This document shows, piece by piece, positions 5,810 through 21,753 of a DNA stretch of 50,080 nt. Made by a program: the position numbers and the translations under genes. The notes under the pieces were generated by a model, which had not been told where the DNA came from, did not search any database, and saw only the letters and a program-made list of their open reading frames with translations. The DNA is from a bacterium (GTDB taxonomy: Bacteria; Planctomycetota; JADGBV01), in NCBI GenBank assembly GCA_023261545.1, contig JAHFOS010000010.1, positions 1 to 50,080 of the forward strand. Reading direction: 5' to 3'. Every line of letters starts with the position of its first letter. The first letter of the stretch is position 1.

Positions 5810-7158
5810 GGTTGTGAGTCCTTGGCGGGAACGTCGTTGGTGGAGGTAGGTTTGTTGAAGGTGCCCATGGCTTTGGCTAAGGTGATGCGCGCCTCAGCGG
5901 CGCTGCGTCGGGCCTCCAGCAGCGCCTCCTCAGCCGCCAAGGCGGCACGGCGGGCATCGAGCACCTCCAGAAGCGAGGATTCGCCAGCACGGAAGGCTTT
6001 CATGCGCAAGGTCAGGGCCTCATTGGCCGCGGGCACTACGGTGACACCAAGCCCCTCTGCGCGCAGGCGTTCGCGTTCGCAAGCTGACCAAGCGAAGCCC
6101 ACCTCGCGCTGGAGGGCGGCGAGCTCCCGTTTCCGCTCGGCGCTGATCCGGGATAGATCGGCCCGCGCGGCGGCGATACCGCCCTGGTTGCGATTCCAGA
6201 GCGGCAGTTCCACCCCAAGGGAAAGCCCATGGTTGTTCGTATCGCTCTCGCGGTCCGCGAAAGCTCCGACCGTCACATCGGGGTACCAAGTCTTCTCTTC
6301 GCGCAAGATATCCGCGCGCCGGGCTTTGGCCTGGGCGACCAGCACCGCCAAGCGGGGATGGACTGCGAGAGCCGCCGCGCGCGCGGCTTCGGCGGTCATG
6401 GATACCGGTTCCACCGTCAAAGCGTCGGCGACGGTGAAGCGGGCGGGCAGCCCTTCCCCACACCAGGCGCGCAGCGTCGCGCGCGCGGCTTCGGCTGCAC
6501 GTCGGGCGGCCTCCAGAGCCAACGTGGCGACGGCGGATTCGGAGCGCACCCGGGCCACGTCGCCCTGGTCGGTCTCCCCTGCAGTTAGGCGTTTCTCCAC
6601 GACGACTTGGATTTCGTTGGCCAGCGCGGCGGCGGCCTCGGCGCGCATCACCGCCGCGTCGGCTGCGGCGACTAAGAGTGCGGCGGAACGAACCTCCGCT
6701 TCCAAATCGAGCGCATCCACCGCCGCTTCCCGTTCCGCGACGCCCCGCTCCGACTCGGCGGCCTTAATGCGCGCTGATCGCTTGCCTGGCAACTCAAGAC
6801 GCTGGCGCACATCGAGGCCGTGGATCGTTTCACGCGCGCCGCCATCTCGGGCACGCGACCGGCCGCCGCTCATTTCCAATTCGGGATTGCTCCAGGCGCG
6901 GGCCCGTGTGACCTCGGCAGCCGCGACGGCCCGGTTGGCCTCCCACACCTCACGGTTGGGGTTGTGGGCCAAAGCCAGCCCGACCAAATGCTCAACGGGG
7001 ACAGTGGCTCCCTCGGCACCGATATGCGGATCACTCACGGATGCGGAAGACCCGGACGGAAATGCGGATTGAGAAGCGTCGGCCCACAGGGCCCGCGCAA
7101 GGATCAACGCTCCGATGCAAACGCGCAACAGATCTGAAAGCAATGGCAGCCGGATCAT
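5806..7158 (-). CDS. czcC: CzcC-type outer membrane efflux protein
   Basis: TolC-family outer-membrane factor for the czcCBA system, 450 aa from the ATG at 7158. A TTG at 7173 in the same frame would add five residues; neither has a strong Shine-Dalgarno. A signal peptide ('LLRVCIGALILARALWADA') is followed by two structural repeats of long Ala/Arg/Glu-rich helices, the two OEP domains. 'LALAHNPNREVWEANRAVAAAE' marks repeat one and 'AALAVHPRLAVLVAQAKARRAD' repeat two; 'GLSLGVELPLWNRNQG' is the conserved beta strand before the last helices. The stop overlaps the czcB start by 4 bp. The family is certain; the partner follows from gene order. Confidence 0.88.
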   Translation of the reverse strand: MIRLPLLSDLLRVCIGALILARALWADASQSAFPSGSSASVSDPHIGAEGATVPVEHLVGLALAHNPNREVWEANRAVAAAEVTRARAWSNPELEMSGGRSRARDGGARETIHGLDVRQRLELPGKRSARIKAAESERGVAEREAAVDALDLEAEVRSAALLVAAADAAVMRAEAAAALANEIQVVVEKRLTAGETDQGDVARVRSESAVATLALEAARRAAEAARATLRAWCGEGLPARFTVADALTVEPVSMTAEAARAAALAVHPRLAVLVAQAKARRADILREEKTWYPDVTVGAFADRESDTNNHGLSLGVELPLWNRNQGGIAAARADLSRISAERKRELAALQREVGFAWSACERERLRAEGLGVTVVPAANEALTLRMKAFRAGESSLLEVLDARRAALAAEEALLEARRSAAEARITLAKAMGTFNKPTSTNDVPAKDSQP

Positions 7159-7272
7159 GGCAAGAATTCCCAAGAGATGCCGCCCAAGTCCAGCACGCGG
7201 ATGGCGGCAAACGTCCGCGGCGGGGAATGATAAACTCCAGCGCGGCCTACGGGCCGCGCCGCGAACGCGCCT

Positions 7273-7683
7273 TCAGATCAGAAAGACGACGGATCGCAGA
7301 TGGGAAGGATAGGACCCGCCCCAGGGTCTCGCGATACAGGGGCTTCGTCTCTCCGGCTTGCAGACAGGAAGCGCGGCAAAGACCGGCGCTGGCGCCAGCA
7401 CGCAGGACATGAAAGCGGCGGAACCCCGCTTCGCCACCCTGGCTGGAGGCAAGGAGAAATCCGCGCAGGATGGCTCCGTCGTGGAAATCGCCTGAAGGAC
7501 GGACGACCCGCCATCCTTTCCCGCCCCATGGATTTCGCAACGACCTTGTGACGCCGGTTCCAGTGAAATTCCCGCCGCGCCTTCGAAACAGAGCACCCTG
7601 CCGCCATAGATCGGCAGGAACAAGAGCGGCAGGGCCAATGCGACGGCCAAGTTCCGCAGGCGATGGATCGGAGCAACCAACAT
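7273..7683 (-). CDS. Small exported protein of unknown function at head of czc genes
   Basis: 136 aa from the ATG at 7683. The N-terminus is a signal peptide or single membrane anchor ('NLAVALALPLLFLPIYGG'), followed by 'VLCFEGAAGISLEP', a spaced set of Cys residues ('GRCEIHG', 'PSCADFSLP') and a hydrophobic C-terminal 'LRSVVFLI'. I recall small proteins of this layout (VLCF, a central Cys/His segment with C-D-P-like spacing, terminal SVVLLI) upstream of Czc systems, but I have no named family. The frame is the only one with this signal-peptide design; the antisense and shifted frames look like shadows. It lies ~115 bp before czcC and ~90 bp after dmeF, on the same strand. A role in periplasmic metal binding is a guess. 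Confidence 0.55.
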   Translation of the reverse strand: MLVAPIHRLRNLAVALALPLLFLPIYGGRVLCFEGAAGISLEPASQGRCEIHGAGKDGGSSVLQAISTTEPSCADFSLPPARVAKRGSAAFMSCVLAPAPVFAALPVCKPERRSPCIARPWGGSYPSHLRSVVFLI

Positions 7684-7775
7684 GGCTTCGGGAGTATCCT
7701 TAGGCTTAAACGCGGTCAAGCGCCGTCCTGCTCGCCGCTTTGCTGACGCGCGTCCGTCTGCGCCTCTATCGTTGG

Positions 7776-8729
7776 TCAACCGGCGGCGTGGACGCCCGCC
7801 TGATCGCGGTCATGTTGTATTTCAATGGTGACGTGCACAAGCTCCTCGTGCTCGCGAAAAAATTCGCGGTAGGTGTCCAAAGGCTTGGGTTCTTTCGCCA
7901 CGATGGAGATAGCGGCCGAGAATTTTCCGATGCCCACTTGCCAGACATGGAGGTCGGCGACAAACGCATCGCCATCGCTCTCTACGGCGCGGCGAATTTC
8001 ATGCGGAAGGTCGGACGATTCCGGTGTGCGGTCCAACAGGATAGCGCTGGTATCCCGAAGCAGGCCATAAGACCAAACGACAATGACGGCACTGCCCACG
8101 AGACCCATCACCGGGTCGAGCCAGGACCAGCCCAAAAACTTGCCTCCGAGCAAGGCTACGATGGCCGTCACGGAAGTTAGCGCGTCGGCGAGGACGTGCA
8201 GATAGGCCGACCGCAGGTTGAGATCGTGGTGGTGATGATGGTGATGGTCGTCATGTTCAGCGCCATGCGCGTGATGGCCGTCGTTGAATAGCAGCGCGCA
8301 AATCAGGTTGACCAGCAGGCCGGCCACGGCCACCGCAATGGCCTCGTTGAAGTGGATCAGTGCCGGCCTGAAAATACCGCGCACCGACTCCCCCGCGACC
8401 AGCAGCGCGACCATAAACAAAATAATCGCGCTTGCGAACCCTCCCAAAACACCCATTTTTCCGAGACCGAAACTGTATCGGGGATCCTCGGCATGGCGCC
8501 GGCTGAAATAGTAGGCGAGCGCCGTAATGAAGAAGGCCGCGGCGTGCGTGCTCATATGCCAGCCATCCGCGAGCAGCGCCATCGAGTTGTAGGTGACGCC
8601 GGCCGCAATCTCTACGGCCATCATCACGGTTGTAATGCAGATAACTATACGGGTGCGGCGCTCACTGACGGAGGAGTCGGCGATATAGTTATGGGAGTGA
8701 CGCCAGCGTGCGAAATCGGCGGGAGGCAT
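7776..8729 (-). CDS. dmeF: CDF-family cation efflux protein, DmeF type
   Basis: Six-helix cation diffusion facilitator, 317 aa, exporting divalent metal from the cytoplasm by proton antiport. 'ALLADGWHMSTHA' (TM2) and 'HVLADALTSVTAI' (TM5) carry the His/Asp metal site, and the 'GWHMxTH' form is typical of the DmeF (Co/Ni) branch. Between TM4 and TM5 is a His-rich loop ('HHAHGAEHDDHHHHHHH') likely to bind metal. 'ERRTRIVICITTVMM' starts TM1. The C-terminal ~90 residues form the cytoplasmic ferredoxin-like dimer domain ('DLHVWQVG'). The ATG at 8729 has an AGGT-like Shine-Dalgarno. It stands between two RND operons on the same strand, so it is probably part of one metal resistance island. The Co/Ni preference is inferred from the motif. 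Confidence 0.88.
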   Translation of the reverse strand: MPPADFARWRHSHNYIADSSVSERRTRIVICITTVMMAVEIAAGVTYNSMALLADGWHMSTHAAAFFITALAYYFSRRHAEDPRYSFGLGKMGVLGGFASAIILFMVALLVAGESVRGIFRPALIHFNEAIAVAVAGLLVNLICALLFNDGHHAHGAEHDDHHHHHHHDLNLRSAYLHVLADALTSVTAIVALLGGKFLGWSWLDPVMGLVGSAVIVVWSYGLLRDTSAILLDRTPESSDLPHEIRRAVESDGDAFVADLHVWQVGIGKFSAAISIVAKEPKPLDTYREFFREHEELVHVTIEIQHDRDQAGVHAAG

Positions 8730-8794
8730 AGGGTTTACCTGGGTGAGAGAATTTGGAGTTTACTGAACGTCCTGTGAAAAACATCCTCTTGCAA

Positions 8795-8836
8795 AGCAAG
8801 GGACTGCCCCGCCTCGGGAGGAGACAGTCCCTTGCT
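8795..8836 (-). terminator. Hairpin between HMBD gene and dmeF
   Basis: A perfect 12-bp inverted repeat (8795-8806 with 8825-8836; arm AGCAAGGGACTG) around an 18-nt loop. It lies 49 bp after the stop of the HMBD gene and 65 bp before the dmeF start. On the minus strand a run of five T follows, but 10-15 nt after the stem rather than directly. It may be a leaky terminator or mRNA processing/stabilising element separating the large cus operon from dmeF. Function not certain. Confidence 0.5.
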
Positions 8837-8885
8837 GAGCGACGGTTTAAGGCAGAGGCCGGAGCGGGGCTCCCAGATCAGAAGC

Positions 8886-9530
8886 TCATTCGTGCTTGCG
8901 ATTAGCGTCGCCATGCTCCTTGTGATCATCCTCGGCTCCGAGAGTCCCCTTGGGATAGAGGCTGGCGATATAATGGAGCAGCTTGTCTAAACGCCCCTCC
9001 TGCTCCTCGGTGGCCTTTTGTTGGCCTGCGTCCCCGGACTCATCGAGCCCAGCTGCGATTCCAGCGGAGCGCTCGACAGCGCCGTCCAATTTTTTGCGAT
9101 CCTCCGCGGAAAGGGCCGAAGAAAGAGCGGGCATCTTTTTAAGCAAATCCCGGATGGCGAAGGCGAACTCATGCACCTTGGCCAGTTCTTTGTTCTCGAT
9201 AGCGTGGTCGAGAGCAGCATGTTGCTCCTGGACCATGGCCCAGGTCTTCTGGAGATCGGTGGTTGGAGCCTCCGCTGCTGCCTTGTGCTCTTCTTGATGC
9301 ACAGCGGTGAGAGCCATGCCGCAGGTTGGGCACTTTCCAGGCTGTTTCGCGTGCACCGAGCTGTGCATCGAACAGGTGTAGTCGGTGTCGGCGCTCTCGT
9401 CCTTTTTTGCGGCCTTCGCCTTGGACTCACCATGTTCTTCATCGCCATGGGCGAAGATGGCCCCGGTAGAAAGAAGCGCCATGAGCATGGGCAGCAGGGC
9501 GTGACGGAGGGAAATTATTTTGAAAGTCAT
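8886..9530 (-). CDS. Exported heavy-metal-binding-domain (HMBD) protein with helical C-terminal domain
   Basis: 214 aa from the ATG at 9530, chosen because AGGAG sits 5-6 nt upstream (9536-9540) and a signal peptide follows directly ('LLPMLMALLSTGAIFA'). A His/Glu-rich linker leads to the HMBD motif 'YTCSMHSSV...KCPTCGMAL', with C53, M55, H56, C67, C70 and M72 as likely soft-metal ligands. Residues ~85-200 are predicted amphipathic helices forming a bundle ('HAALDHAIENKELAKVHEFA'), similar in style to cytochrome b562-like or CpxP-like folds, though without a haem motif. It is the last gene of the cus-type operon, 34 bp after the RND pump. The likely role is a periplasmic metal chaperone; only the HMBD is a secure call. 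Confidence 0.75.
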   Translation of the reverse strand: MTFKIISLRHALLPMLMALLSTGAIFAHGDEEHGESKAKAAKKDESADTDYTCSMHSSVHAKQPGKCPTCGMALTAVHQEEHKAAAEAPTTDLQKTWAMVQEQHAALDHAIENKELAKVHEFAFAIRDLLKKMPALSSALSAEDRKKLDGAVERSAGIAAGLDESGDAGQQKATEEQEGRLDKLLHYIASLYPKGTLGAEDDHKEHGDANRKHE

Positions 9531-9564
9531 AAAAACTCCTTGGAAAAGGTGGAAAAAGAAACGC

Positions 9565-12500
9565 TCATGATCCGGTCGCGCCGTATGCGGCGAAGACGCG
9601 CGGCAGCTCTTCAGGGCATAGCTCGCGAAAAATGTGCTCCACCGCACGCCGGCCGAACAGCCAGAACATGGCCGGACGCAGCGCGATGTCCATCAGGGTG
9701 GAGCCGATGATGCCGGAAAAAACCACCACGGCCACGGGATGCAGGATCTCCTTGCCCGTCTCTCCGGCGGCGAGGATCAAGGGAATCAGGGAGAGCGACG
9801 CCGTGAGCGCGGTCATCAGCACCGGCACGATTCGCTCCAGGGCACCACGCACGATCATGCGCTGGTTCCAGGACTCGCCCTCGTGGCGCAGGAGGTGCAG
9901 GTAGTGCGAGATCATCATGATGCCGTTGCGCGAATCAATGCCGCACAGGGTGATGAAGGCCACCATGGAGGCGACGCTGACCACGCCGCCCGTGAGGTAG
10001 ATGCCGGCAATGGCGCCGACGAAGGAGAAGGGGATGCTCGCCAGGATCTGCACGACTAGGTTCGCGGATCGAAAGTGGCTGTACAGCGCGATGATGATGC
10101 CGGCCAAGCTGAACAGGCTCAGGAAAGCCAGGGTGCGCCGCGCCTGCTGCTGGCTCTCGTATTGGCCGCCGAAGGTGATAAAGGAACCCTCGGGCAACAC
10201 GACGTGCTGACCCAGACGCTGGCGGATGTCTTCAACAACACCGCCCAGATCCCGTCCGCTGGTGTTGCATTGGATGACGATGCGCCTTTTCGTGTCCTCG
10301 CGCAGGACCTGGTTCGGGCCTTGGCCGTCAATGACCTCGGCCACCGCGCGCAGGGGAATCAACCCATGGCCCGGCGTGTCAATGAGCGTCTCTCCGAGCG
10401 CGCCGGCATCACGTCGCGCCTCATCCGGCAAGCGCAGGACGATATCATAGCGGCGCTGCCCGTCCAAGATTTCTCCGACCCGGAGACCCTGCAGGGCTGT
10501 CTCCACGACCTCGGCCACCTCCCCGACGCGCAGGCCGTAGAGCTGGGCCTTACGGCGATCGATACGCACCAGAGTTTCCGGCACGAGGACCTGCTTCTCG
10601 ACATACAGGTCCACGATGCCCGGAACCTCACCCATGACGCGACGGATCTCATCCGCCTTAGCGCGCAAAACCTCTAGGTCATCCGCGAAGAGCTTGACGG
10701 CAATTTGCGCGCGCACTCCAGAGAGTAGGTGGTCGATGCGATGGCTGATGGGTTGACCGATGTTGACGACCAAGCCGGGGAGCATCCCCAGGCGCCCGCG
10801 AATGTCGGCGAGCACGGCTTCCCTGCTGCGCGCGGGAGCGCCTTGGCGGCTGGATCTGAAGAACCCTGTCAACCTGGAAAAGATTCCCTTCGCCTCCGGG
10901 ACATCGAGCTCGACTTCAATCTCCGTCGAATGCACTCCCTCGGCGTGATCGTCCTGCTCGGCACGCCCGACACGCCGGCCGGTCTGCCGTACCTCGGGAA
11001 CCTCGCGGATCAAGTCCTCGGCCAACCGACCGACGCGATCACTTTCCGCCAGGGCGGTGCCGGGCGGCAGCAGCAGATTGATGGTGACGCTGCCCTCGTT
11101 GAAGGGCGGCAGGAACTCGCTGCCGAAACGGGAGGCCGACCACAGGCTCAGCACGACCAGCGCCGGTCCCACGGCCAGGCTTGCTCCAGGATACCGCAGC
11201 GTCGTCCGCAACACCCAATGCTCATCGAGGTGCTTGATACAGCGCACCAGCCAGCCGTCACGCTCGTCGTCCATGAATTTTGCCCGGGGCAGCAAATAGG
11301 ACGCCAGCGCCGGTGTCAGCGTGAGCGCCACCACCAGCGAGGCCAGGATGGAAACCACATAAGCGACGCCGAGGGGCACGAAAATGCGCCCCTCGATGCC
11401 GCCCATGCTGAAGAGCGGGACAAAGACGAGGACGACGATGACGGTGGCAAAAACGATGGACCCGCGCACCTCGGAGGACGCTCTGAAAATCACCAGGGCG
11501 GCGCCCTGAAGGCCGTGGCTGGAAGGCGCGTCCGCCGCTCCCGATTCCGCTCTTTTCTTCCACTCCTTCAGTCGGCGGAAGACGTTCTCGATATCCACGA
11601 TGGCGTCATCCACCAGCTCGCCGATGGCGATGGCGAGTCCTCCCAGGGTCATGGTATTGATGGACATGCCGAAGAGGTGGAAAACAAAGGCCGTGATCAC
11701 CAGCGAGAGGGGAATGGCCGTCAAGGTGATGAGCGTGGTGCGGAAGTTGAGCAGGAACAGCAAGAGCACCAGCGCCACGAAGATGGCTCCGTCGCGCAAG
11801 GCCTCCAAGACGTTGTGGATGGCCGTGCGGATGAACTCGGACTGGCGGAAGATCTCCCGGTGAACGCGATAACCGGGTTTCAAGCCCTTCTCGATCCCGT
11901 CGAGCGCCAGGTTGATCTGCGCACTGAGCGCCACGGTGTCAGCGTCCGGCTGTTTCTGGATGCTCAGGATAACAGCGCGCCGTCCATTGGCGCCAGCCTC
12001 GCCGCGCTTGATGGGCGAACCCTCGCGAACCTCAGCGACGTGGGAGAGCAATACGGGAACCCCGCCGCGATCAACGATGACGGTTTGCTCCAGATCCTCG
12101 ATGGATTCCACCCGCGCGATATTGCGCACCATGGATTCCGCCGCCCCCTCGAAAACAAAGGCTCCACCTGTGTTGACGTTGGATTCTTTCAAGGCCGCCT
12201 CGACATCATGCAGGGTGAGGCCGAGCGCCTTCAGGCGCTCCTGCCGCACCAGCACCTGGAACTGGCGCACGTCCCCACCGATGACGGTGACCTGAGCTAT
12301 TCCAGCCACCGACAACAGCCGCGGCCGCACCGTCCAATCGGCCAGCGTGCGCAGATCCATGGACGTGAGGTTTTGATTCGCGTCCGCCGTGATGGCGATG
12401 AGCATGATTTCGCCCATGATGGACGAGATGGGACCCATGACGGGATTCACGCCAACTGGCAACTGTTCGCGCGCGCTGTTGAGTTTTTCCGAGACGATTT

Positions 12501-12822
12501 GCCGGGCCCTGTAGATGTCCATGTCCCAATCGAACTCGATGAAAACCAGCGCCAAGCCGACGGAAGAAACCGAGCGCACCCGGCGCACGCCGGTGGCTCC
12601 GTTCATCATAGTCTCGACGGGAAAGGCCACTTGGGTCTCCACCTCTTCCGGCGCCAGTCCTTCGGCCTCCAAGAAGATGGTCACCGTGGGCCGGTTCAGG
12701 TTCGGCAAAACATCCACCGGCAGTCTCGTGATGAGCACGGAGCCCCAGGCCAGGATCAGCGCCGCCGCCGCGACTACGATAAGGCGGTTGCGCAGCGAGA
12801 AGGCGATGATGGCGTCCAGCAT
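9565..12822 (-). CDS. Heavy-metal efflux RND pump (CzcA/CusA superfamily), second system
   Basis: Full-length HME-type RND pump, 1085 aa. Transmembrane helix 4 has 'AIGELVDDAIVDIEN' (399-413); D405/D406 replace the CzcA DFGIIVD form, placing it in a different HME branch from the 1201-4509 pump. N-terminal 'RLPVDVLPNLNRPTV' and 'GATGVRRVRSVSSVGLA' are standard HME-RND elements. The methionine triad of CusA is not evident, so the substrate is unknown. The start ATG directly abuts the stop of the tandem adaptor (TAGATG), so the two are surely co-translated. C-terminus is short and charged ('RELCPEELPRVFAAYGATGS'). Confidence 0.88.
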   Translation of the reverse strand: MLDAIIAFSLRNRLIVVAAAALILAWGSVLITRLPVDVLPNLNRPTVTIFLEAEGLAPEEVETQVAFPVETMMNGATGVRRVRSVSSVGLALVFIEFDWDMDIYRARQIVSEKLNSAREQLPVGVNPVMGPISSIMGEIMLIAITADANQNLTSMDLRTLADWTVRPRLLSVAGIAQVTVIGGDVRQFQVLVRQERLKALGLTLHDVEAALKESNVNTGGAFVFEGAAESMVRNIARVESIEDLEQTVIVDRGGVPVLLSHVAEVREGSPIKRGEAGANGRRAVILSIQKQPDADTVALSAQINLALDGIEKGLKPGYRVHREIFRQSEFIRTAIHNVLEALRDGAIFVALVLLLFLLNFRTTLITLTAIPLSLVITAFVFHLFGMSINTMTLGGLAIAIGELVDDAIVDIENVFRRLKEWKKRAESGAADAPSSHGLQGAALVIFRASSEVRGSIVFATVIVVLVFVPLFSMGGIEGRIFVPLGVAYVVSILASLVVALTLTPALASYLLPRAKFMDDERDGWLVRCIKHLDEHWVLRTTLRYPGASLAVGPALVVLSLWSASRFGSEFLPPFNEGSVTINLLLPPGTALAESDRVGRLAEDLIREVPEVRQTGRRVGRAEQDDHAEGVHSTEIEVELDVPEAKGIFSRLTGFFRSSRQGAPARSREAVLADIRGRLGMLPGLVVNIGQPISHRIDHLLSGVRAQIAVKLFADDLEVLRAKADEIRRVMGEVPGIVDLYVEKQVLVPETLVRIDRRKAQLYGLRVGEVAEVVETALQGLRVGEILDGQRRYDIVLRLPDEARRDAGALGETLIDTPGHGLIPLRAVAEVIDGQGPNQVLREDTKRRIVIQCNTSGRDLGGVVEDIRQRLGQHVVLPEGSFITFGGQYESQQQARRTLAFLSLFSLAGIIIALYSHFRSANLVVQILASIPFSFVGAIAGIYLTGGVVSVASMVAFITLCGIDSRNGIMMISHYLHLLRHEGESWNQRMIVRGALERIVPVLMTALTASLSLIPLILAAGETGKEILHPVAVVVFSGIIGSTLMDIALRPAMFWLFGRRAVEHIFRELCPEELPRVFAAYGATGS

Positions 12823-14703
12823 CTAGTTTTCCTTCTGCTGGGTGGGTGGCGCCACCGGGCTGCTCGAAGCATGGCGCAGCCGTTCAGCCCCCCGCGAGAC
12901 GACCGGATCGCCAGGAAAGACCCCGTCGCTGATGATGACGTGGCGGGCGTCACGAGCCCCCAGAGAAACGTGTTGACGCCGGAAGGCATTCCCGAATTTA
13001 ACGTACACGAAGGGACCGCGGTTCTCGTCGAGCACGGCGGACAGCGGAACGGCGAGGCCTTCCTCCCGTGGGCCGGTCACGATATGGACCTCCACCAGCA
13101 TGTGCGGCCGCAACAGGAGTTCATCCTGATGCAATGCGATCCATACGGGCAGGGTCCGCGTCGCTTCCTCCAGTTGAGCGCCAAAACTCAGCACGTGCCC
13201 CTGGAACTCCCGGCCCGGCCAAGCCTCGGAGCTGATCCGGGCCACTTGGCCCAGCTCAAGGGCACGCGACTCGCTCTCGTAAATACGGCAGCGCACCCGG
13301 ACGAACCTCAGGTCGGCTAGGGTGAACAGGTCGGTTTTTTCCCTGAACATGCGGCCGATGCGCGCCGCGCTATCCAGGACGGTGCCCTCCAGCGGAGCCA
13401 GAATGGCCACGGGCGCGGGTGAGGCGCCGATGAGCACGGGCTCAACGCGCGCGAGCATGGCGCCAGCGGCTACGGTTTCTCCGCCGAAAACAGCGAGCTC
13501 CCGCACGACCCCAGCCCCATTCGTGCCAACACGCGCCACATGCTCGGGATCGGTTTCGATCTCGCCGTAGCCGCGCACCAGCCGCTCGAGGCTCAGCAGT
13601 TCGGCCTCCGTGGTTTTAAGGCCCAAATGGGATTGGGCCGCCTCATCCAAGCGCACGTCCGCGCCGGTGGGATCGCCGGCCTGCGGCGCCGGGCTACCTT
13701 TTTGACTCGCTGCGCCTGGCGCGCGCATTTCGGATGGCGCTGGATGCACCTTGGCCGCGGCATACTGCAACTCCCAGGCTCCCTGAGTGACGACGCGCTC
13801 CCCCGCGGTGAGGCCGCCCTTTATTTCCACCTCTCCCTCATCGCTCACGCCGATGGCAACGGGCCGGCCCCTGAAGCGCCGGCCTTCCTGGACAAAGACG
13901 AAATAATTGCCCGCCCTGCCCAATAGCGCTTGGCGTGGAACCGCCAAATTCGCGTCGGTCGCCGTGATAATGCCGGCGCGCACGTGCATCCCTGGACGCA
14001 ACCCCTCGACCATGCCCTCGGGGCCCTCGGGTTGGATGATGACGGCGAGCCGGTGATCGGTGTCAAGCTGACCAGCCATTCGCAGGATCGAGCCGTTGCT
14101 ACTGTGGTCGGGAAAAGCATCGGCCTCTAACAGCGCCTTCATGCCCACGCGCAAGCGCCCGATATCTATTTCCTGCACCTGGCACTCCACCAACATGGCT
14201 TGCGGCTTCTGGATGAGAAAAAGCTCCTGCCCGGCCTCGACCCCTTGTCCGGGTTCGATCCAGCGCTCGCGGACGATGCCGTCCATCGTCGAGACAACGA
14301 CCAACGAAGGCGGCGGATCACCGGGCAGATCGCTCCGTAGAACGGCCAGCTCCTCGTCCCGTTTCACTAGGGCACCTTCCCGAACCCGCACCTCCGTGAT
14401 CCGGCCCGCCACCCTGGCACTGACGGTGATCTCGCCGGCGGGATCGCCAATTACTTGGCCGTAACTGATGAGCCTGGTCGCGAATTTCCGTTTTTCCGCC
14501 GCGCGGCTGGTGATGGCGAGCTTGGCGATAGTGCGCTCATCCAGCTCCACGGGTTCCAAGCCCACAGTACCCACGGCCGCCGCCCCATGATCGTGTCCCC
14601 CGTGACCCTCCACCACCTCAGGGAGGATCAGCAGAACAGCCAGCGTGGCGAACGCTCGCCAGGCTCTTTTCGGTGCGGCGGACCTATCCTGGCAACCCTT
14701 CAT
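12823..14703 (-). CDS. Tandem-fused double RND adaptor (two membrane fusion protein modules)
   Basis: 626 aa from the ATG at 14703, which overlaps the previous stop in ATGA; a longer reading from 14778 is open but lacks a signal peptide at its start. Signal peptide ('FATLAVLLILPEVVEG') and a His-rich stretch ('HGGHDHG') lead into two complete adaptor modules. Module 1 (~50-318) runs from 'LDERTIAKLAI' through lipoyl halves ('AGRITEVRVREGALVKRDEELAVL' region) to 'GGLTAGERVVTQG'. After a Pro/Ala linker, module 2 (~350-613) repeats the layout from 'LDEAAQSHLGL' to 'GVFPGDPVVSRGAERLRH'. In both, the lipoyl halves are joined by only ~10-15 residues, with no room for the alpha-helical hairpin that usually contacts TolC. 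Normal adaptors are ~350-450 aa with one module. Confidence 0.85.
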   Translation of the reverse strand: MKGCQDRSAAPKRAWRAFATLAVLLILPEVVEGHGGHDHGAAAVGTVGLEPVELDERTIAKLAITSRAAEKRKFATRLISYGQVIGDPAGEITVSARVAGRITEVRVREGALVKRDEELAVLRSDLPGDPPPSLVVVSTMDGIVRERWIEPGQGVEAGQELFLIQKPQAMLVECQVQEIDIGRLRVGMKALLEADAFPDHSSNGSILRMAGQLDTDHRLAVIIQPEGPEGMVEGLRPGMHVRAGIITATDANLAVPRQALLGRAGNYFVFVQEGRRFRGRPVAIGVSDEGEVEIKGGLTAGERVVTQGAWELQYAAAKVHPAPSEMRAPGAASQKGSPAPQAGDPTGADVRLDEAAQSHLGLKTTEAELLSLERLVRGYGEIETDPEHVARVGTNGAGVVRELAVFGGETVAAGAMLARVEPVLIGASPAPVAILAPLEGTVLDSAARIGRMFREKTDLFTLADLRFVRVRCRIYESESRALELGQVARISSEAWPGREFQGHVLSFGAQLEEATRTLPVWIALHQDELLLRPHMLVEVHIVTGPREEGLAVPLSAVLDENRGPFVYVKFGNAFRRQHVSLGARDARHVIISDGVFPGDPVVSRGAERLRHASSSPVAPPTQQKEN

Positions 14704-15983
14704 GGCGCGGGTTCCATGGCATGGGCGGCCGCGGCATCGGCGGCGGCGAGGCGCAATTCCAACAGCAACTCGATCCACGCGGATTTGAGATCCAGATGCT
14801 GCTGCCGCGCCTGGAGGATCTCTGTCATGCCGTTCAGTCCCTTCAGATAACCAGCGCGGGCGATCTCAATATTCTCCCGGGAACGTTCGAGGATCCCCGA
14901 GCGATAGCGGTCGAGTTGGGCGGCCGCGGCGCGCAGCCTTTGCAAGGCATCACGGCATTCGCCGCGCACGCGGACTTCCAGGGCCCGCAATTCCAGACCC
15001 GCCCGATCTTCGCGCAGGGCGGCCTCGCGGATGCGCCCGCGCGCCCGGTTGACGAGGGGCAAGGGCGCCGCGATCTTAAAGCCGTAAGTATCCTCCGTGC
15101 CGCCGAGGTCGGAACTTTTTTCGTAAGCGATCCCCACACCGACGTCCGCCCAACGCTCCTTCTCGGCCAAACTCCGTTCGAGCCGCGCCTGACGCACCCG
15201 CTCACGGGCGACCCGCACATCGGGACGGTGCTCCAGAGCGAAGGCCGTGGAATAGGCATCGTCGCCGGGAACGGCCATTTCCAAGTTTCCCATGGGCCGT
15301 CGCTCGACGTCTTCCGCTCCGATCAGGCGGTTGAACTCGATGCCCAAGGAGGCCCCTTGCGTCTCGATTTTGGCCTTCTTGCTTCGCGCGCGCTGCAATT
15401 CTATCGCGGCACTGTTGCGGTGGGCTTCCGAGACTTGCGCCTGACCCAGGGCCTTCTCCATCACCACGAGCAGTTCCTCCGCGGACGCGATCAGCTCGTC
15501 CTGCAAGGCCGCATCTTCCTGAAGCGCCAGCAGGCGCGCGAAAGCCGCGGCGATGCGCCGGGCCAATTCCCTCTCCGTGTCGCCAATCTCCCAGCGAGTC
15601 GCAGCGAGCTCCGCGCCAGCGACCTCACGCGCGGCCCGCAAGCGTCCCGAGAACGCGAAAGGTTGGATCAGATCCAGTTCCAGATTTTTGCGGCTTCCGG
15701 AGCCACCCAAGCTCTTCACTTCAAGCTCGGGGTTGCCGGGAATTCCCGCCTGAATCTCTCGCGCCTCGGCTTCGCCGATGCGCAACCGCACGGCTTTGAG
15801 GTCGGGGTTCTGGCGTAAAGCCGTGGCGACCGCCTCTGGCAGGGAGATGGGGATGGATCGCGCGGCCGGGCTGGGGACGCGGGTGTCAGCCACGGATTCG
15901 CCTGGATCAGCCACAACTCCGGCGAGGCCCATGATCACGCCCATGAGGACGGCGACGGCGCGGCGGTGCAAGGGCTTATTCAT
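14700..15983 (-). CDS. Outer membrane efflux protein (CzcC/TolC family), second system
   Basis: 427 aa outer-membrane factor. It has a signal peptide ('AVAVLMGVIMGLAGVVADP'), then 'ISLPEAVATALRQNPDLKAVRL' as the first OEP repeat and 'FALEHRPDVRVARERVRQAR' as the second, each leading into long helices. 'YGFKIAAPLPLVNRARGRI' is the conserved strand-helix junction and 'LKGLNGMTEILQARQQHLDL' the terminal helix pair. Its ATG (15983) overlaps the end of cusA by 8 bp, and its stop overlaps the start of the tandem adaptor by 4 bp. It presumably serves the tandem adaptor and the 9565-12822 pump. Confidence 0.87.
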   Translation of the reverse strand: MNKPLHRRAVAVLMGVIMGLAGVVADPGESVADTRVPSPAARSIPISLPEAVATALRQNPDLKAVRLRIGEAEAREIQAGIPGNPELEVKSLGGSGSRKNLELDLIQPFAFSGRLRAAREVAGAELAATRWEIGDTERELARRIAAAFARLLALQEDAALQDELIASAEELLVVMEKALGQAQVSEAHRNSAAIELQRARSKKAKIETQGASLGIEFNRLIGAEDVERRPMGNLEMAVPGDDAYSTAFALEHRPDVRVARERVRQARLERSLAEKERWADVGVGIAYEKSSDLGGTEDTYGFKIAAPLPLVNRARGRIREAALREDRAGLELRALEVRVRGECRDALQRLRAAAAQLDRYRSGILERSRENIEIARAGYLKGLNGMTEILQARQQHLDLKSAWIELLLELRLAAADAAAAHAMEPAP

Positions 15984-18900
15984 TCCGGTAAGCCCGCCCC
16001 TTCCAGAGCAGGAATATCGCCGGATAGACCAGCAGCTCCAGCAGGAATGAGGTGGCGAGCCCGCCCACCATGGGTGCGGCCAGGCGCTTCATGAGGTCGG
16101 CGCCGGTGCCGGTGCTCCAGAGCAGGGGCACCAGCCCCACGAAGGTGGTGAGCACCGTCATGAGCTTGGGGCGGATGCGCCGCGCCGCGCCCTCGACGAT
16201 GGCTGCGCGGAGATCCGCGGGGGTTTTGATGCGGCCTTCGGAACGCCAGCGCTCATAGGCGAGCTTGAGGTAGAGCAGCATCACCACGCCGGTTTCGGCG
16301 TCGAGTCCGGCCAGGGCGATCATGCCCACCCACACCGCGACGCTGATGTTGTAGTTCAGGCCGTAAAGCAGCCACACCGCCCCGATGAGCGAGAACGGCA
16401 CGGCCAGGAGCACAATGCAGGTTTCAGCCAGCGAGCGCGTATTGAGGTACAGCAGCAGGATGACGATGGCCAGCGTCACGGGCACCAGCAACAGCAGCCG
16501 TTCCCGGGCGCGCTCGTAGTGCTTGAACTGCCCGACCCAGGCGATGCGCACGCCCGGGGGAAGCTCCAGCGCGCTCGCCACCTTCTCGCGCGCCGCGTTC
16601 ACGTACTCGACCAGCGGAACGTCGCCGGGATCGATGAACACGAAGCCCACCAGTTTGCCGTCTTCGCTGCGCAGCATGTCGGGGCCGCGCGTGTGGCGGA
16701 TGGCGGCCACTTCGCCGAGCGGAAGCGCGTAGCCGCGCGGGGAGTCCACCAGCAGCGCGGCGAGGTCCTCGGGGTTTTCGCGGAAGTCGCGCGCATAGCG
16801 CACCTGCACGGGATAGCGCTCGCGGCCTTCCACGGTTTCGCTGATGTTCATGCCGCCCAGAGCTGTTTCCAGGGTCATGTTCACGTCCGCGATGTTGATG
16901 CCGTGGCGCGCGGCCTTGTCGCGGTCGGGCACGACGTCAATGTAGAAGCCGCCGGTGGAGCGCTCCGCGAAGGCGCTGCGCGTGCCGGGGATAGCGGCGA
17001 CGATGCGCTCGATGGCGATGGCCGCTTTTTCGATGGATTCCAGGTTGTCGCCGAAGACCTGGACTCCCAGCGGGCTGCGCACGCCGGTGGCCAGCATTTC
17101 GGTGCGCGTCTGCACGGGCATCCACCAGATGTTGGGCATGCCCGGCACGTCCAGGACGGCGTTCATCTCCTTGATGAGCCCGTCCCAGGTGAGGCCCGCG
17201 CGCCACTGTTCCTTCGGCTTCAGCACCACGGTGGTCTCCACCATGTTGAGCGGCGCCGGATCGGTGGGGCTTCCCGAGCGGCCTATTTTGCCAAAGACAG
17301 AGACGACCTCCGGGAACTCCTTGAGCTTGCGGTCCATGAGTTGCAGCGTCGCGCCGGCCTCGGTCATGGACATGCCCGGCGGCGCGGTGGGCATGTAGAG
17401 CAGGGAGCCCTCGTTCAGGGGCGGCATGAATTCGCTCTTCAGGGCGAAGAAGGCCGGAACCGTGGTGGCCATCAGCAGCACCGCCAGCGCGATGATGAGC
17501 CGCGGGTAGCGCAACACACCGCGCACCACCACGGAGTAGCCGCCGATGAGCCAGCGGTTCAGGGGATGGCGCTCCTCCTCGCGGACGCGCCCGCGCAGGA
17601 CGAGGGCGGCCAATGCCGGCGCCAGCGTGACCGCGAGGAAAGCCGCGGCGCCCATGGAGTAGGTCTTGGTGAAGGCCAGGGGCTTGAACAAGCGGCCCTC
17701 GGTGCCTTCAAGGGCGAAAACAGGCAGGAAGCCCACGGTGATCACCAGCAGCGAATAGAAGATGGCGGGCCCCACCTCCTGCATGGCCGCCACCAGCACC
17801 GCCGCGCGTTCGCCTGGACGGCCGTGCCGCTCCCAATCCTCGAGTTTGTTGTGGATGTTCTCGATGATGATGATGGAGGCATCCACCATGGCGCCGATGG
17901 CCACCGCGATGCCGCCCAGCGACATGATGTTGGCGGTGAGGTGCTGCTGCAGCATGGGGATGAAGGAAATAACTACCGCGGCCGGCAGCAGCAGGATGGG
18001 GATCAGCGCGCTCTTGAAGCTCATCAGGAAGAGGAAAATAACCACGCTCACCACCACCATCTCTTCGATGAGGGTGTGCTTCAGGGTGGCGATGGCGGCG
18101 CGGATGAGTTCGGAGCGGTCGTAGGTGACGCGGAGCTCCACGCCCGGTGGCAGACCCAACTTCACTTCCGTCAGGCGCTGCTTCACGGCGTCAATGATGT
18201 GCAGCGCGTTCTCGCCGTAGCGCATCACCACGATGCCGCCCACGGTCTCGCCTTCGCCGTCGAGTTCCGCCACACCGCGCCGCGACTCGGGACCCAGGCT
18301 CACCGCGGCCACGTCTTGAACGCGCACGGCGATACCGCCCGCGGCGCTTTTGACGGGAATGCTTTCGAGGTCCCGGGGCGACTGGATATAGCCGCGCCCG
18401 CGGATCATGTGCTCGTGGCCGGCGATTTCCAAGGTGTGGCCGCCGCTGTCGGCATTGGCCGCGCGCACGGCGTTCAGCACGTCTCCGAGCAGGACGCCAT
18501 GCGCCCTGAGCTTCAGGGGATCCACCTGCACCTGGTATTGTTTCACGAAGCCGCCCACCGCCGCGACCTCGGCCACGCCGGGCACGCTCTGGAGAGCGTA
18601 GCGCAGGTTCCAGTCCTGGAGGGCGCGCAACTGCCGCAGGTCCTGCCGGCCGCTCTTGTCCACCAGCGCGTACTGGAACACCCAGCCCACGCCGGTGGCG
18701 TCGGGACCGAGGACGGGGTTCACGCCCGCCGGCAGCCTGCCGCTGGCCGCGCTCAGGTACTCCAGCACGCGGCTGCGTGCCCAGTAGATGTCCGTCCCGT
18801 CCTCGAAAATAACGTACACCAGCGAGAGCCCGAAGAAGGACTGGCCGCGCACGTACTTGACCTTCGGAGCCGCGAGCAGGGAGGATGACAGGGGATAGGT

Positions 18901-19122
18901 GATCTGATCCTCGACGAGATCAGGGCTGCGTCCCGGCCAGTCCGCGGAGATGATGACCTGCACGTCGGAGAGGTCGGGAACGGCGTCCAGGGGCGATTGC
19001 ATCATGGAGTGCCAGCCCCAAGCCACCGCGCCAACGGCGACGGCGATGACCAGCCAGGGATTGGCCGCGCTGGCGGCGATGAGCCGCGCGACGAGGCCCG
19101 TTTTTTCTTCGGGTGGCGTCAT
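15976..19122 (-). CDS. cusA: CusA-type Cu(I)/Ag(I) efflux RND pump
   Basis: 1048 aa, close to E. coli CusA (1047). The three periplasmic methionines that bind Cu(I)/Ag(I) in CusA (M573, M623, M672) are matched by M577 ('SLLYMPTAPPG'), M627 ('APLNMVETT') and M676 ('TRTEMLATGVRSP'), all with the same +4 offset. Helix 4 contains 'GGIAVAIGAMVDASIIIIEN' (403-422), the CusA form of the proton-relay motif. This makes monovalent copper/silver the likely substrate. Start ATG overlaps the cusB stop (ATGA, 19119-19122), and its stop overlaps the next outer-membrane gene by 8 bp. Comparison with E. coli CusA is from memory. Confidence 0.95.
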   Translation of the reverse strand: MTPPEEKTGLVARLIAASAANPWLVIAVAVGAVAWGWHSMMQSPLDAVPDLSDVQVIISADWPGRSPDLVEDQITYPLSSSLLAAPKVKYVRGQSFFGLSLVYVIFEDGTDIYWARSRVLEYLSAASGRLPAGVNPVLGPDATGVGWVFQYALVDKSGRQDLRQLRALQDWNLRYALQSVPGVAEVAAVGGFVKQYQVQVDPLKLRAHGVLLGDVLNAVRAANADSGGHTLEIAGHEHMIRGRGYIQSPRDLESIPVKSAAGGIAVRVQDVAAVSLGPESRRGVAELDGEGETVGGIVVMRYGENALHIIDAVKQRLTEVKLGLPPGVELRVTYDRSELIRAAIATLKHTLIEEMVVVSVVIFLFLMSFKSALIPILLLPAAVVISFIPMLQQHLTANIMSLGGIAVAIGAMVDASIIIIENIHNKLEDWERHGRPGERAAVLVAAMQEVGPAIFYSLLVITVGFLPVFALEGTEGRLFKPLAFTKTYSMGAAAFLAVTLAPALAALVLRGRVREEERHPLNRWLIGGYSVVVRGVLRYPRLIIALAVLLMATTVPAFFALKSEFMPPLNEGSLLYMPTAPPGMSMTEAGATLQLMDRKLKEFPEVVSVFGKIGRSGSPTDPAPLNMVETTVVLKPKEQWRAGLTWDGLIKEMNAVLDVPGMPNIWWMPVQTRTEMLATGVRSPLGVQVFGDNLESIEKAAIAIERIVAAIPGTRSAFAERSTGGFYIDVVPDRDKAARHGINIADVNMTLETALGGMNISETVEGRERYPVQVRYARDFRENPEDLAALLVDSPRGYALPLGEVAAIRHTRGPDMLRSEDGKLVGFVFIDPGDVPLVEYVNAAREKVASALELPPGVRIAWVGQFKHYERARERLLLLVPVTLAIVILLLYLNTRSLAETCIVLLAVPFSLIGAVWLLYGLNYNISVAVWVGMIALAGLDAETGVVMLLYLKLAYERWRSEGRIKTPADLRAAIVEGAARRIRPKLMTVLTTFVGLVPLLWSTGTGADLMKRLAAPMVGGLATSFLLELLVYPAIFLLWKGRAYRNE

Positions 19123-20378
19123 TCCTCACCGCCCCAAACGGCGGCCGCGGAGCGCAGGCGGCTCTCGGCGGCCACCAGGAAGGTTCCTGACGCCACCACC
19201 TCCGCGCCTTCCTCCAGGCCTTCCAGCACCTCGTAGGATTCCCCGGCGCGCGCGCCCGTGCGGATGCGGCGGATCTGCAGGTGGCCCGCGTCCGCCTCCA
19301 CGAAGACCAGCCGGCTCGTTCCCGAGAAGATCACCGCGGCGGCGGGCACCAGCAGCTTGTCGCCGAGTTCCACCTTCCAGACGACCTCGGTGGTTTGGCC
19401 GGGGCGCAGGCGCGTTCCGGGGTTGTCGAGCACGATGCGCAGCGTGGCCGTGCGCGTCTCTTCGCGCACGGCGGGCAACACGGCAGCCACCTTGCCCGCC
19501 GCGGTCATTTCACCTTCCGGACCCTTCCAGCGCACCTCCACCGGCAGATCCGCGCGGGCGTAGGGCAACTCGGATTCATAGATCGCCGCCTCCACGAAAA
19601 CGCGATCCAGGGGCGCCAGGCGCAGGACGCGCTCGCCCATCATCAGGAAGCCGCCTTCCACGGCGTTCTTTTCAAGGATAAAGCCGTCCAGCGGGCTCAG
19701 GACCTTGGCGCGCCCGACGGCGTTGCCGCTCAGCGCCAGCTCCGTGATCTGCTCCTGGTCCATGCCCCAGAGTTCGAGGTTGCGCGTGGCGGCCGCCGCG
19801 AGCATTCCAGCGCGCGCACCCGATAAGCTGGCGCTCTTGGCTTGCCCCAAGGCCAAGAGGTACTCGTGCTGCACGCTGTAGAGATCGGGACTGTAGATCT
19901 CGAAAAGCGGCTCGCCGCGCTTCACGGCCGCGCCCGTCGCGGAGGCGTAGAGTTTCTCCACCCAGGCCCCCGAGCGCAGGCTGATGTCCCGCAGGCCGTT
20001 CTCATCGTAGGCCACCACTCCCGGCGAACGGAAATTGAGCCGCAACGGGCCGCGGGTCACTTCTTGCAGGCGTATTCCCACGAGTTTACGGCGCTCCGCG
20101 CTCATGGGAATGACACCCGTGTCAAGTTCCTTCTGATACACCGGGGTGAGGTCCATGCTGCAGATGGGGCATTTCCCCGGCTGCGTCGCGCGCACCGAGT
20201 TGTGCATGGAACAGGTGTAGTAGGCGATGGCGTTGGCGCCCTTATCCGCCGCCGCACGAGTTTTTTCTCCGGGTTCATGGCTATGGCCGGCGTGTTCATG
20301 ACCTTCCTGCGCGCCAGCCCGCGCGGGCACCAGGGCCACCGTGGCCGCAAGGAAAAGAATGAGGGATCGGTTATTCAT
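19119..20378 (-). CDS. cusB: CusB-type periplasmic adaptor with N-terminal HMBD domain
   Basis: 419 aa from the ATG at 20378. The start is chosen because a signal peptide follows directly ('SLILFLAATVALVPARAGA') and because it gives an 8-bp overlap with the upstream cusC-like gene. A His-rich linker ('GHEHAGHSHEPG') leads to an HMBD domain ('YYTCSMHNSV...KCPICSMDL', C56, M58, H59, C70, C73, M75), then the adaptor body: 'LRSGAWVEKLYASATGAAVKRGE', a short helical hairpin (~190-240), the second lipoyl half, and beta-barrel/membrane-proximal domains. The HMBD probably receives Cu(I)/Ag(I) in the periplasm and hands it to CusA, as CusB's N-terminus does in E. coli. It shares the HMBD with the 8886-9530 protein. 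Confidence 0.93.
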   Translation of the reverse strand: MNNRSLILFLAATVALVPARAGAQEGHEHAGHSHEPGEKTRAAADKGANAIAYYTCSMHNSVRATQPGKCPICSMDLTPVYQKELDTGVIPMSAERRKLVGIRLQEVTRGPLRLNFRSPGVVAYDENGLRDISLRSGAWVEKLYASATGAAVKRGEPLFEIYSPDLYSVQHEYLLALGQAKSASLSGARAGMLAAAATRNLELWGMDQEQITELALSGNAVGRAKVLSPLDGFILEKNAVEGGFLMMGERVLRLAPLDRVFVEAAIYESELPYARADLPVEVRWKGPEGEMTAAGKVAAVLPAVREETRTATLRIVLDNPGTRLRPGQTTEVVWKVELGDKLLVPAAAVIFSGTSRLVFVEADAGHLQIRRIRTGARAGESYEVLEGLEEGAEVVASGTFLVAAESRLRSAAAVWGGEE

Positions 20379-21753
20379 GGTCGGACTCCGGTGAAGGGGT
20401 GCTATCCAGTGGCACGGGAACGGTGGTGGCGCGGCCCGGCATGCGGCCGCGAGCCGCGTCGAGCCGGGCACGCGCTAGAACCTGCCCGGCCAGGGCCTCA
20501 TGGCGGCCGAATTCGGCTTCATGAAGGTGTCGCGCCGCCTCGATGACTTCGCGCAGCTCCGCGCGCCCGGCCTCGTAGTCGAGCCGCGCGGAATCCAGCC
20601 AATCGCGCGCGGTAGGCAGGATGTTGGTGGCATAGTTCGCCGCCACGTCGCAAGCACTGTGCAGGTCCGCGAGCGCGCGACGCACTTCGCCGGTAATGGC
20701 GGCCTCCGCCGCCGCCAGTTCGTAGTGCAGCAGTTGCGCCTCGTCGTTGGACTCGCGCACCATGGCGCTGCGCCTGGCGAAGCGCAGCGGCAGCGCCACG
20801 GAAACGCCGAGCGCGAAGCGCAGGTCCGCTTCCTCCATGAAGGTGCTCTGCTCCGCCATGAACATCAGGTCGGGAAAGCGTTCGCGCCGCGCGAGGTCCA
20901 CGCGGGTGAGCGCGGCGCCCCGGCGCGCGCGCAGGGCGGCGATTTCAGGCCGGGAGCGCAGCGCCTCCTTGACGGCCTCATCCTCATTTTCCGCGCCGGA
21001 AAGCAGCGGCAGTTCCGCCACGGGCGGGGGCAACTGCGGCAGGTTGGCGCCACCGCGCCGGTCGAGCAGGGCGTCCATGCGTGCCAACACCTCCGCTTGA
21101 CGCCCCGCGATTTTCAACATCCCATGGTGGGTGTGATGCAACTCGACCTCGGCCATGAGCGCCGGGCCGCGGCTGGCCTTGCCGGCCTGATGGCGGGCGA
21201 GCGCGCTGGCCTGCAGCGCCCGCAACAGCTCACCCTGTTTTTCCAACAGCTCTGCTTCGCGTGCCAGGCCGTAGTAGTCGGCATAAAGCTCGTAGGCCTC
21301 GGCGGCGATGGCGAGTTCTAGGGCACGGCGATCACCTCCGGCCGCCGCCGCCTCGAGCTCTGCCGCCCGTCCGCGCAGGCTCGTCCGTCCGGGAAAGGGG
21401 ATGGACTGCTCCAAGCGCAAGGACCAGCCCGTGCGCATTTCCGAAGACAGGCTTTGCGGGGCGAGGGCATAGGAAAGCACGGGATCCATCCAGGATCGTT
21501 CCTGCACCGCCCGTTCCCCGCGCGCCTGCTGGAAAGCCGCGGCGGCCTTGAGCCGCGGGCTGCGCGCGAGGGCCAGGGCCGCGAGATCGTCCGCATCGAG
21601 GACCGGGCCGCGCAAAGCGCGGTCGGTGTCCGAAGCGGGCGGCCGTGGATGGAGGATCGCGACCTCGATGGCGCGCGCTGGTCCTTCGGCCCATAAGCCG
21701 GACGCCAGACACGCGGCCAGACCGCTGGCCCATAGTTTTCGCAAAAAAGGCAT
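20371..21753 (-). CDS. CusC-like outer membrane efflux protein
   Basis: 460 aa TolC-family outer-membrane factor. ATG at 21753 has GGAG 6-7 nt upstream (CAGGAGCAGT before ATG). The signal peptide ends near 'ACLASGLWAEGPARA'. 'DLAALALARSPRLKAAAAFQQARGE' begins OEP repeat one and 'EALRSRPEIAALRARRGAAL' repeat two; 'WSLRLEQSIPFPGRTSLRG' and 'LGVSVALPLRFARRSAM' are the conserved strands. The sequence is less like the two other outer-membrane factors of this window than those are in layout, with a longer N-terminal extension. It is the second gene of the cus operon and feeds into cusB by an 8-bp overlap. Confidence 0.85.
   Translation of the reverse strand: MPFLRKLWASGLAACLASGLWAEGPARAIEVAILHPRPPASDTDRALRGPVLDADDLAALALARSPRLKAAAAFQQARGERAVQERSWMDPVLSYALAPQSLSSEMRTGWSLRLEQSIPFPGRTSLRGRAAELEAAAAGGDRRALELAIAAEAYELYADYYGLAREAELLEKQGELLRALQASALARHQAGKASRGPALMAEVELHHTHHGMLKIAGRQAEVLARMDALLDRRGGANLPQLPPPVAELPLLSGAENEDEAVKEALRSRPEIAALRARRGAALTRVDLARRERFPDLMFMAEQSTFMEEADLRFALGVSVALPLRFARRSAMVRESNDEAQLLHYELAAAEAAITGEVRRALADLHSACDVAANYATNILPTARDWLDSARLDYEAGRAELREVIEAARHLHEAEFGRHEALAGQVLARARLDAARGRMPGRATTVPVPLDSTPSPESDHE

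Follow-up and report, generated by a model that had tools for sequence, protein, structure and literature searches.

RND pumps carry six periplasmic adaptors at two kinds of site, two per protomer, and these adaptors usually, but not necessarily (BesA is an exception), have a helical hairpin between the two halves of the lipoyl domain. The 50,080-nucleotide stretch of a Planctomycetota genome analysed here (contig JAHFOS010000010.1; hereafter the window) contains a gene, next to an RND pump, that appeared from its sequence to encode two adaptors in one chain, both lacking that hairpin. This raises the question of whether a single polypeptide could provide both adaptors of each pump protomer and, if so, how such a protein arose and how it would meet the outer-membrane channel.

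Two adaptor cores in one polypeptide

The adaptor gene encodes one polypeptide composed of two diverged, complete adaptor cores, neither of which has a hairpin (Table 1). The full protein matches the Pfam families HlyD_D23 (E = 6e-43) and HlyD_3 (E = 7e-27) and scores 209 bits against NCBIfam TIGR01730, for which the cut-off is 94.9, identifying it as an RND adaptor. The first-pass annotation of this DNA had proposed two full cores in tandem with diverged halves, and this is borne out by domain searches, self-comparison, and structural models. Specifically, the domain searches find two cores instead of one, each half exceeding the Pfam cut-offs when taken alone (HlyD_D23 60.7 bits and HlyD_3 58.8 bits for half 1; 91.4 and 40.7 bits, respectively, for half 2), and the two halves align with each other over 268 residues at 28.7% identity (E = 1e-23). 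Both cores are full length and retain the invariant glycines and prolines. The same annotation had noted a very short linker between the lipoyl halves of each core; indeed, in place of a hairpin, the lipoyl half-motifs lie only ~10 residues apart, within RSDLPGDPPPSLVVV in core 1 and EPVLIGASPAPVAIL in core 2. Outside the cores, a His-rich stretch, HGGHDHG, follows the predicted signal peptide and is unstructured in the AlphaFold2 model, while inspection of the signal region revealed no lipobox cysteine. The linker between the cores comprises 30 residues and is of low confidence in the model of half 2.

Table 1. Features of the two-core adaptor gene and of the surrounding efflux genes, in window coordinates
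Feature	Position	Strand	Basis or remark
Two-core periplasmic adaptor, 626 aa	12823..14703	-	ATG at 14703, stop at 12823; Pfam/NCBIfam
Predicted Sec-type signal peptide, residues 1-33	14605..14703	-	By eye from sequence
Adaptor core 1, residues 48-317	13753..14562	-	Pfam, AlphaFold2, fold match
Lipoyl-half join of core 1, RSDLPGDPPPSLVVV, residues 123-137	14293..14337	-	At usual hairpin site
Flexible inter-core linker, ~residues 318-347	13663..13752	-	Ala/Pro/Gly/Ser/Gln-rich
Adaptor core 2, ~residues 348-614	12862..13662	-	Pfam, AlphaFold2, fold match
Lipoyl-half join of core 2, EPVLIGASPAPVAIL, residues 421-435	13399..13443	-	
Outer-membrane channel, OEP/TolC family	14700..15983	-	Pfam OEP E = 5e-33
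RND pump, CusA/CzcA family	9565..12822	-	TIGR00914 779 bits, cut-off 701
Small exported protein with heavy-metal-binding HMBD domain	8886..9530	-	Pfam HMBD E = 1e-10; 3' of pump
Separate upstream set	21753-15976		
Pump of upstream set	15976-19122		CusA-type
Adaptor of upstream set	19119-20471		
Channel of upstream set	20371-21753		
Third channel-adaptor-RND set	7173-1201		
Cation diffusion facilitator	7776-8729		His-rich loop

Structures of the halves were predicted with AlphaFold2 from a small alignment of the window proteins and two fetched adaptors, each half being folded separately because a full-length alignment placed every single adaptor on half 2. The mean pLDDT was 78.6 for half 1 and 82.9 for half 2, with values of ~80-95 in the cores. 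In neither model are there hairpin helices, the cores being made of strands, which together with the ~10-residue joins upholds the earlier claim that both cores lack the hairpin. The top Foldseek matches in the PDB were BesA structures, 4kkt for half 1 (E = 2e-17) and 4kku for half 2 (E = 7e-17), and for both halves BesA ranked above CusB, ZneB, and the multidrug adaptors. The TM-scores were moderate (~0.5-0.6), as is expected for flexible multi-domain proteins in which the orientation of the domains is uncertain.

The adaptor is the middle gene of a tightly packed series in the order channel, adaptor, pump: its ATG overlaps the stop codon of the channel gene (CCATGA), and the ATG of the pump gene abuts its own TAG (TAGATG). 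It is the single adaptor gene adjoining this pump. The closest solved structure to the pump is CusA; its helix-4 region, GELVDDAIVDIEN, differs from that of CusA, GAMVDAAIVMIEN. The gene for the HMBD protein is preceded by a ribosome site, AAGGAG, and kin of this protein occur near several other two-core adaptor systems. Because the pump belongs to the CusA/CzcA family and the HMBD protein, other efflux sets, and a cation diffusion facilitator are nearby, its substrate is probably a metal. Positions 1201-21753 as a whole constitute a metal-efflux island, with three full channel-adaptor-RND sets, the cation diffusion facilitator, and the HMBD protein.

Hairpin-bearing relatives and the origin of the fusion

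Other two-core adaptors, for which the first-pass annotation had suggested a search, were found with a junction profile that runs from the last part of core 1 into the first part of core 2. Of the 391 further genomes of the phylum that were scanned, 10 contain near full-length matches (loci L068-L077); all 10 ORFs contain two strong adaptor cores, and each is followed by a gene whose product is a pump with a score of 980-1144 bits in comparison with the window pump. The 16S site matched by probe PLA46 is present in several member genomes, and SBP_bac_10 proteins occur in the window genome, in keeping with a probable assignment of the phylum to Planctomycetota. The profile is matched at E<=1e-16 by 77 of the 398 genomes sampled from one of the phylum's classes; this sample shares some genomes with the previous one, and only a subset of the 77 matches was examined individually. 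Among 20 regions fetched from this class (L181-L200), 15 have two strong cores and 18 have a related pump adjacent, the other two ending at contig ends. Hairpin-bearing two-core adaptors are widespread in this phylum and common in the one class, and wherever the neighbor is visible they adjoin one pump clade, of the CusA/CzcA type. Like the window adaptor, they have two cores per chain and stand beside a related CusA/CzcA-type pump. However, they are longer (~670-860 aa), bear hairpins of ~70 residues in both cores where these could be aligned, and have almost no inter-core linker, and their pumps form a clade of their own from which the window pump is excluded.

Several variants were seen among these and other loci. 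In a subgroup of the class regions (L188, L193-L196), the second core is only a partial or weak match, and three of these matches cover ~110 of 176 positions, which would fit loss or divergence of the membrane-proximal part of that core. At L185 (genome G691), the pump gene beside the two-core adaptor, at 6816-10241, is split into ORFs of 777 and 344 aa. An exported domain of ~200 aa accompanies related pumps, being a separate protein beside the adaptor in Hymenobacter and Variovorax (L149 2192-2806, L151 2189-2815) and fused to the adaptor N-terminus in Magnetospirillum and Haliscomenobacter (L150, L152). In Hymenobacter and Variovorax, the small gene that precedes the adaptor was considered as a split adaptor half; this was rejected, as its product reads as an exported, His-rich protein that shows no adaptor features.

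The trees bear on whether the window adaptor and its hairpin-bearing relatives share one fusion event. In the pump tree, the pumps of 27 two-core systems form one clade (SH-aLRT 99) and the window pump falls outside it; the AU test rejects a single group of all two-core pumps plus the window pump at p = 0.001 (0.0006 in a version with fewer rows). The sister of the window pump is that of genome G060, with 59% identity, and the G060 adaptor is a single-core, hairpin-less protein of 342 aa; the window genome's own class consists of two genomes. Given this placement of the window pump, outside the two-core clade and beside a pump whose one adaptor is hairpin-less, the best reading is that the window adaptor is most likely a second, independent fusion, formed from hairpin-less modules.

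Trees of the individual modules are consistent with several arrangements. In a first tree, the hairpin-bearing N modules form a clade that is placed with their C modules, as would be expected from one old duplication; a second tree, with more single adaptors, left this N-C join open. Topology tests returned p = 0.61 for the window halves as sisters, p = 0.56 for the window halves with the hairpin-less Legionella adaptors, and p = 0.30 for half 2 joined to the remaining C modules. Alternatively, the window adaptor may have come from the hairpin-bearing two-core lineage, both hairpins having been lost and the pump exchanged later, a history suggested by the shared two-core design, the gene order, and the related pump type and compatible with the module trees, in which a clade uniting every N and C module gave p = 0.38. 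We consider this unlikely, in view of the position of the window pump outside the two-core clade, the longer linker of the window adaptor, the near rejection (p = 0.058) of a tree that joins half 1 to the remaining N modules, and the fact that half 1 is nearest in sequence to a hairpin-less Legionella adaptor (34%). Taking the second fusion as the preferred reading, we tentatively suggest, with somewhat less than even confidence, that covalent pairing arose at least twice on one metal-type RND pump family, in an ancient and widespread duplication and, here, from hairpin-less modules, hard-wiring two non-equivalent sites and leaving the channel seal in the window system to the lipoyl domains only.

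A model for the assembled pump

The combined data probably indicate a covalently built-in adaptor pair that serves one heavy-metal-type RND tripartite pump, assembles in a 3:3:3 complex, docks through its lipoyl domains, and originated in an independent fusion of hairpin-less modules. In this model, three two-core chains would surround the trimeric pump, each of their six cores occupying one of the adaptor sites that six separate subunits normally take, giving a chain stoichiometry of 3:3:3 (pump : two-core adaptor : channel) instead of 3:6:3, and the linker would set which core takes which of the non-equivalent sites on each protomer. Of the built-in pair envisaged at the outset, the sequence and the models establish two diverged modules in one chain beside a pump and a channel. 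Three precedents lead us to infer that each protomer receives both of its adaptors from a single chain: TriA/TriB, AcrA tandem constructs, which are functional (PMC4446572, PMC13328181), and the fused TriA-TriB chain solved with its pump (PDB 6vej).

Docking to the outer-membrane channel without hairpins would plausibly be altered. The ring of lipoyl domains may itself contact the channel; for BesA, direct contact of this kind, without hairpins, was argued earlier (PMC3807786). An idea concerning the channel gate was rejected: TolC has an aspartate ring that is missing from BesC, and the window and Legionella channels have Gln at the second Asp position, but the channels of the hairpin-bearing systems vary there too, so this trait fails to distinguish the groups.

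It is also conceivable, if rather improbable, that the pump makes use of a single core and that the other is an accessory, such as one with a metal-binding or regulatory role, or a spacer; the divergence of the halves (28.7% identity) and the partial or weak second-core matches of the L188 and L193-L196 relatives would fit such a role, whereas both window cores are full length, score above the cut-offs of the family, and have all its invariant Gly and Pro residues. Another possibility, that the adaptor bridges two neighboring RND pumps with one core on each, is prompted by the second RND pump gene directly upstream of the channel gene, yet it is very improbable because the second pump comes with an adaptor and a channel of its own and most two-core relatives adjoin a single pump. 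Finally, although the host genome assembly is fragmented (288 contigs, 91% complete), an assembly or sequencing error that fused two adaptor genes, which the first-pass annotation had named as a possible objection, is exceedingly unlikely: a signal peptide is missing from half 2, base composition does not vary (GC3 0.752 and 0.751), the cores are joined by the 30-residue linker, there is no internal stop or sign of a frameshift, and many independent two-core homologs exist elsewhere.

Where adaptor subunits are identical, their roles at the two unlike sites are genetically indistinguishable. Two diverged cores in one natural chain label both sites, and each could therefore be mutated alone. 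In addition, the hairpin-less two-core form is a natural system in which to ask whether hairpins are required to open and seal the outer-membrane channel.

Comparison with known adaptor systems

In plasmids, the best matches over both halves were the same single adaptor hit twice (~800-1,100 bases), and the junction query gave no match; a scan of genome contigs yielded three single adaptors only, and the viral contigs scanned contained no relatives. In the literature searched, a scope that left most subscription papers outside, no report was found of natural two-core adaptors on RND pumps, nor any mention of the wider two-core family described above. Hairpin-less adaptors, two adaptors on one pump (TriA/TriB), and a fused adaptor on an ABC transporter (DSY0927) are already known; what appears new here, no report of it having been found, is the combination of a fused two-core adaptor, the lack of hairpins, and an RND pump.

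Hairpin-less adaptors are known from spirochaetes and have been remarked upon in Legionella (PMC3807786). BesA, from the Borrelia burgdorferi BesABC system (4kks/4kkt/4kku), has a hairpin-less core like both window halves, but only one per chain, and its pump exports drugs. The adaptors on Legionella plasmids (L. fallonii L037, L. adelaidensis L153) are likewise hairpin-less, share the gene order channel-adaptor-pump, have a similar short join (LIGNPPPS against LPGDPPPS), and are the closest in sequence to half 1; however, they have one core, and their pump is only 38% identical to the window pump. DSY0927 of Desulfitobacterium hafniense is a natural fusion of two different adaptors, the N-terminal half of which has no coiled coil (PMC4338810, PMC4446572). 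Unlike the window adaptor, it serves an ABC transporter in a Gram-positive bacterium, and its C-terminal half resembles ordinary RND adaptors. TriA and TriB of TriABC-OpmH are two different adaptors on one RND pump, and a fused form has been solved, but in nature they are encoded by two genes, have hairpins, and serve a triclosan pump, whereas the window adaptor is hairpin-less and encoded by one gene.
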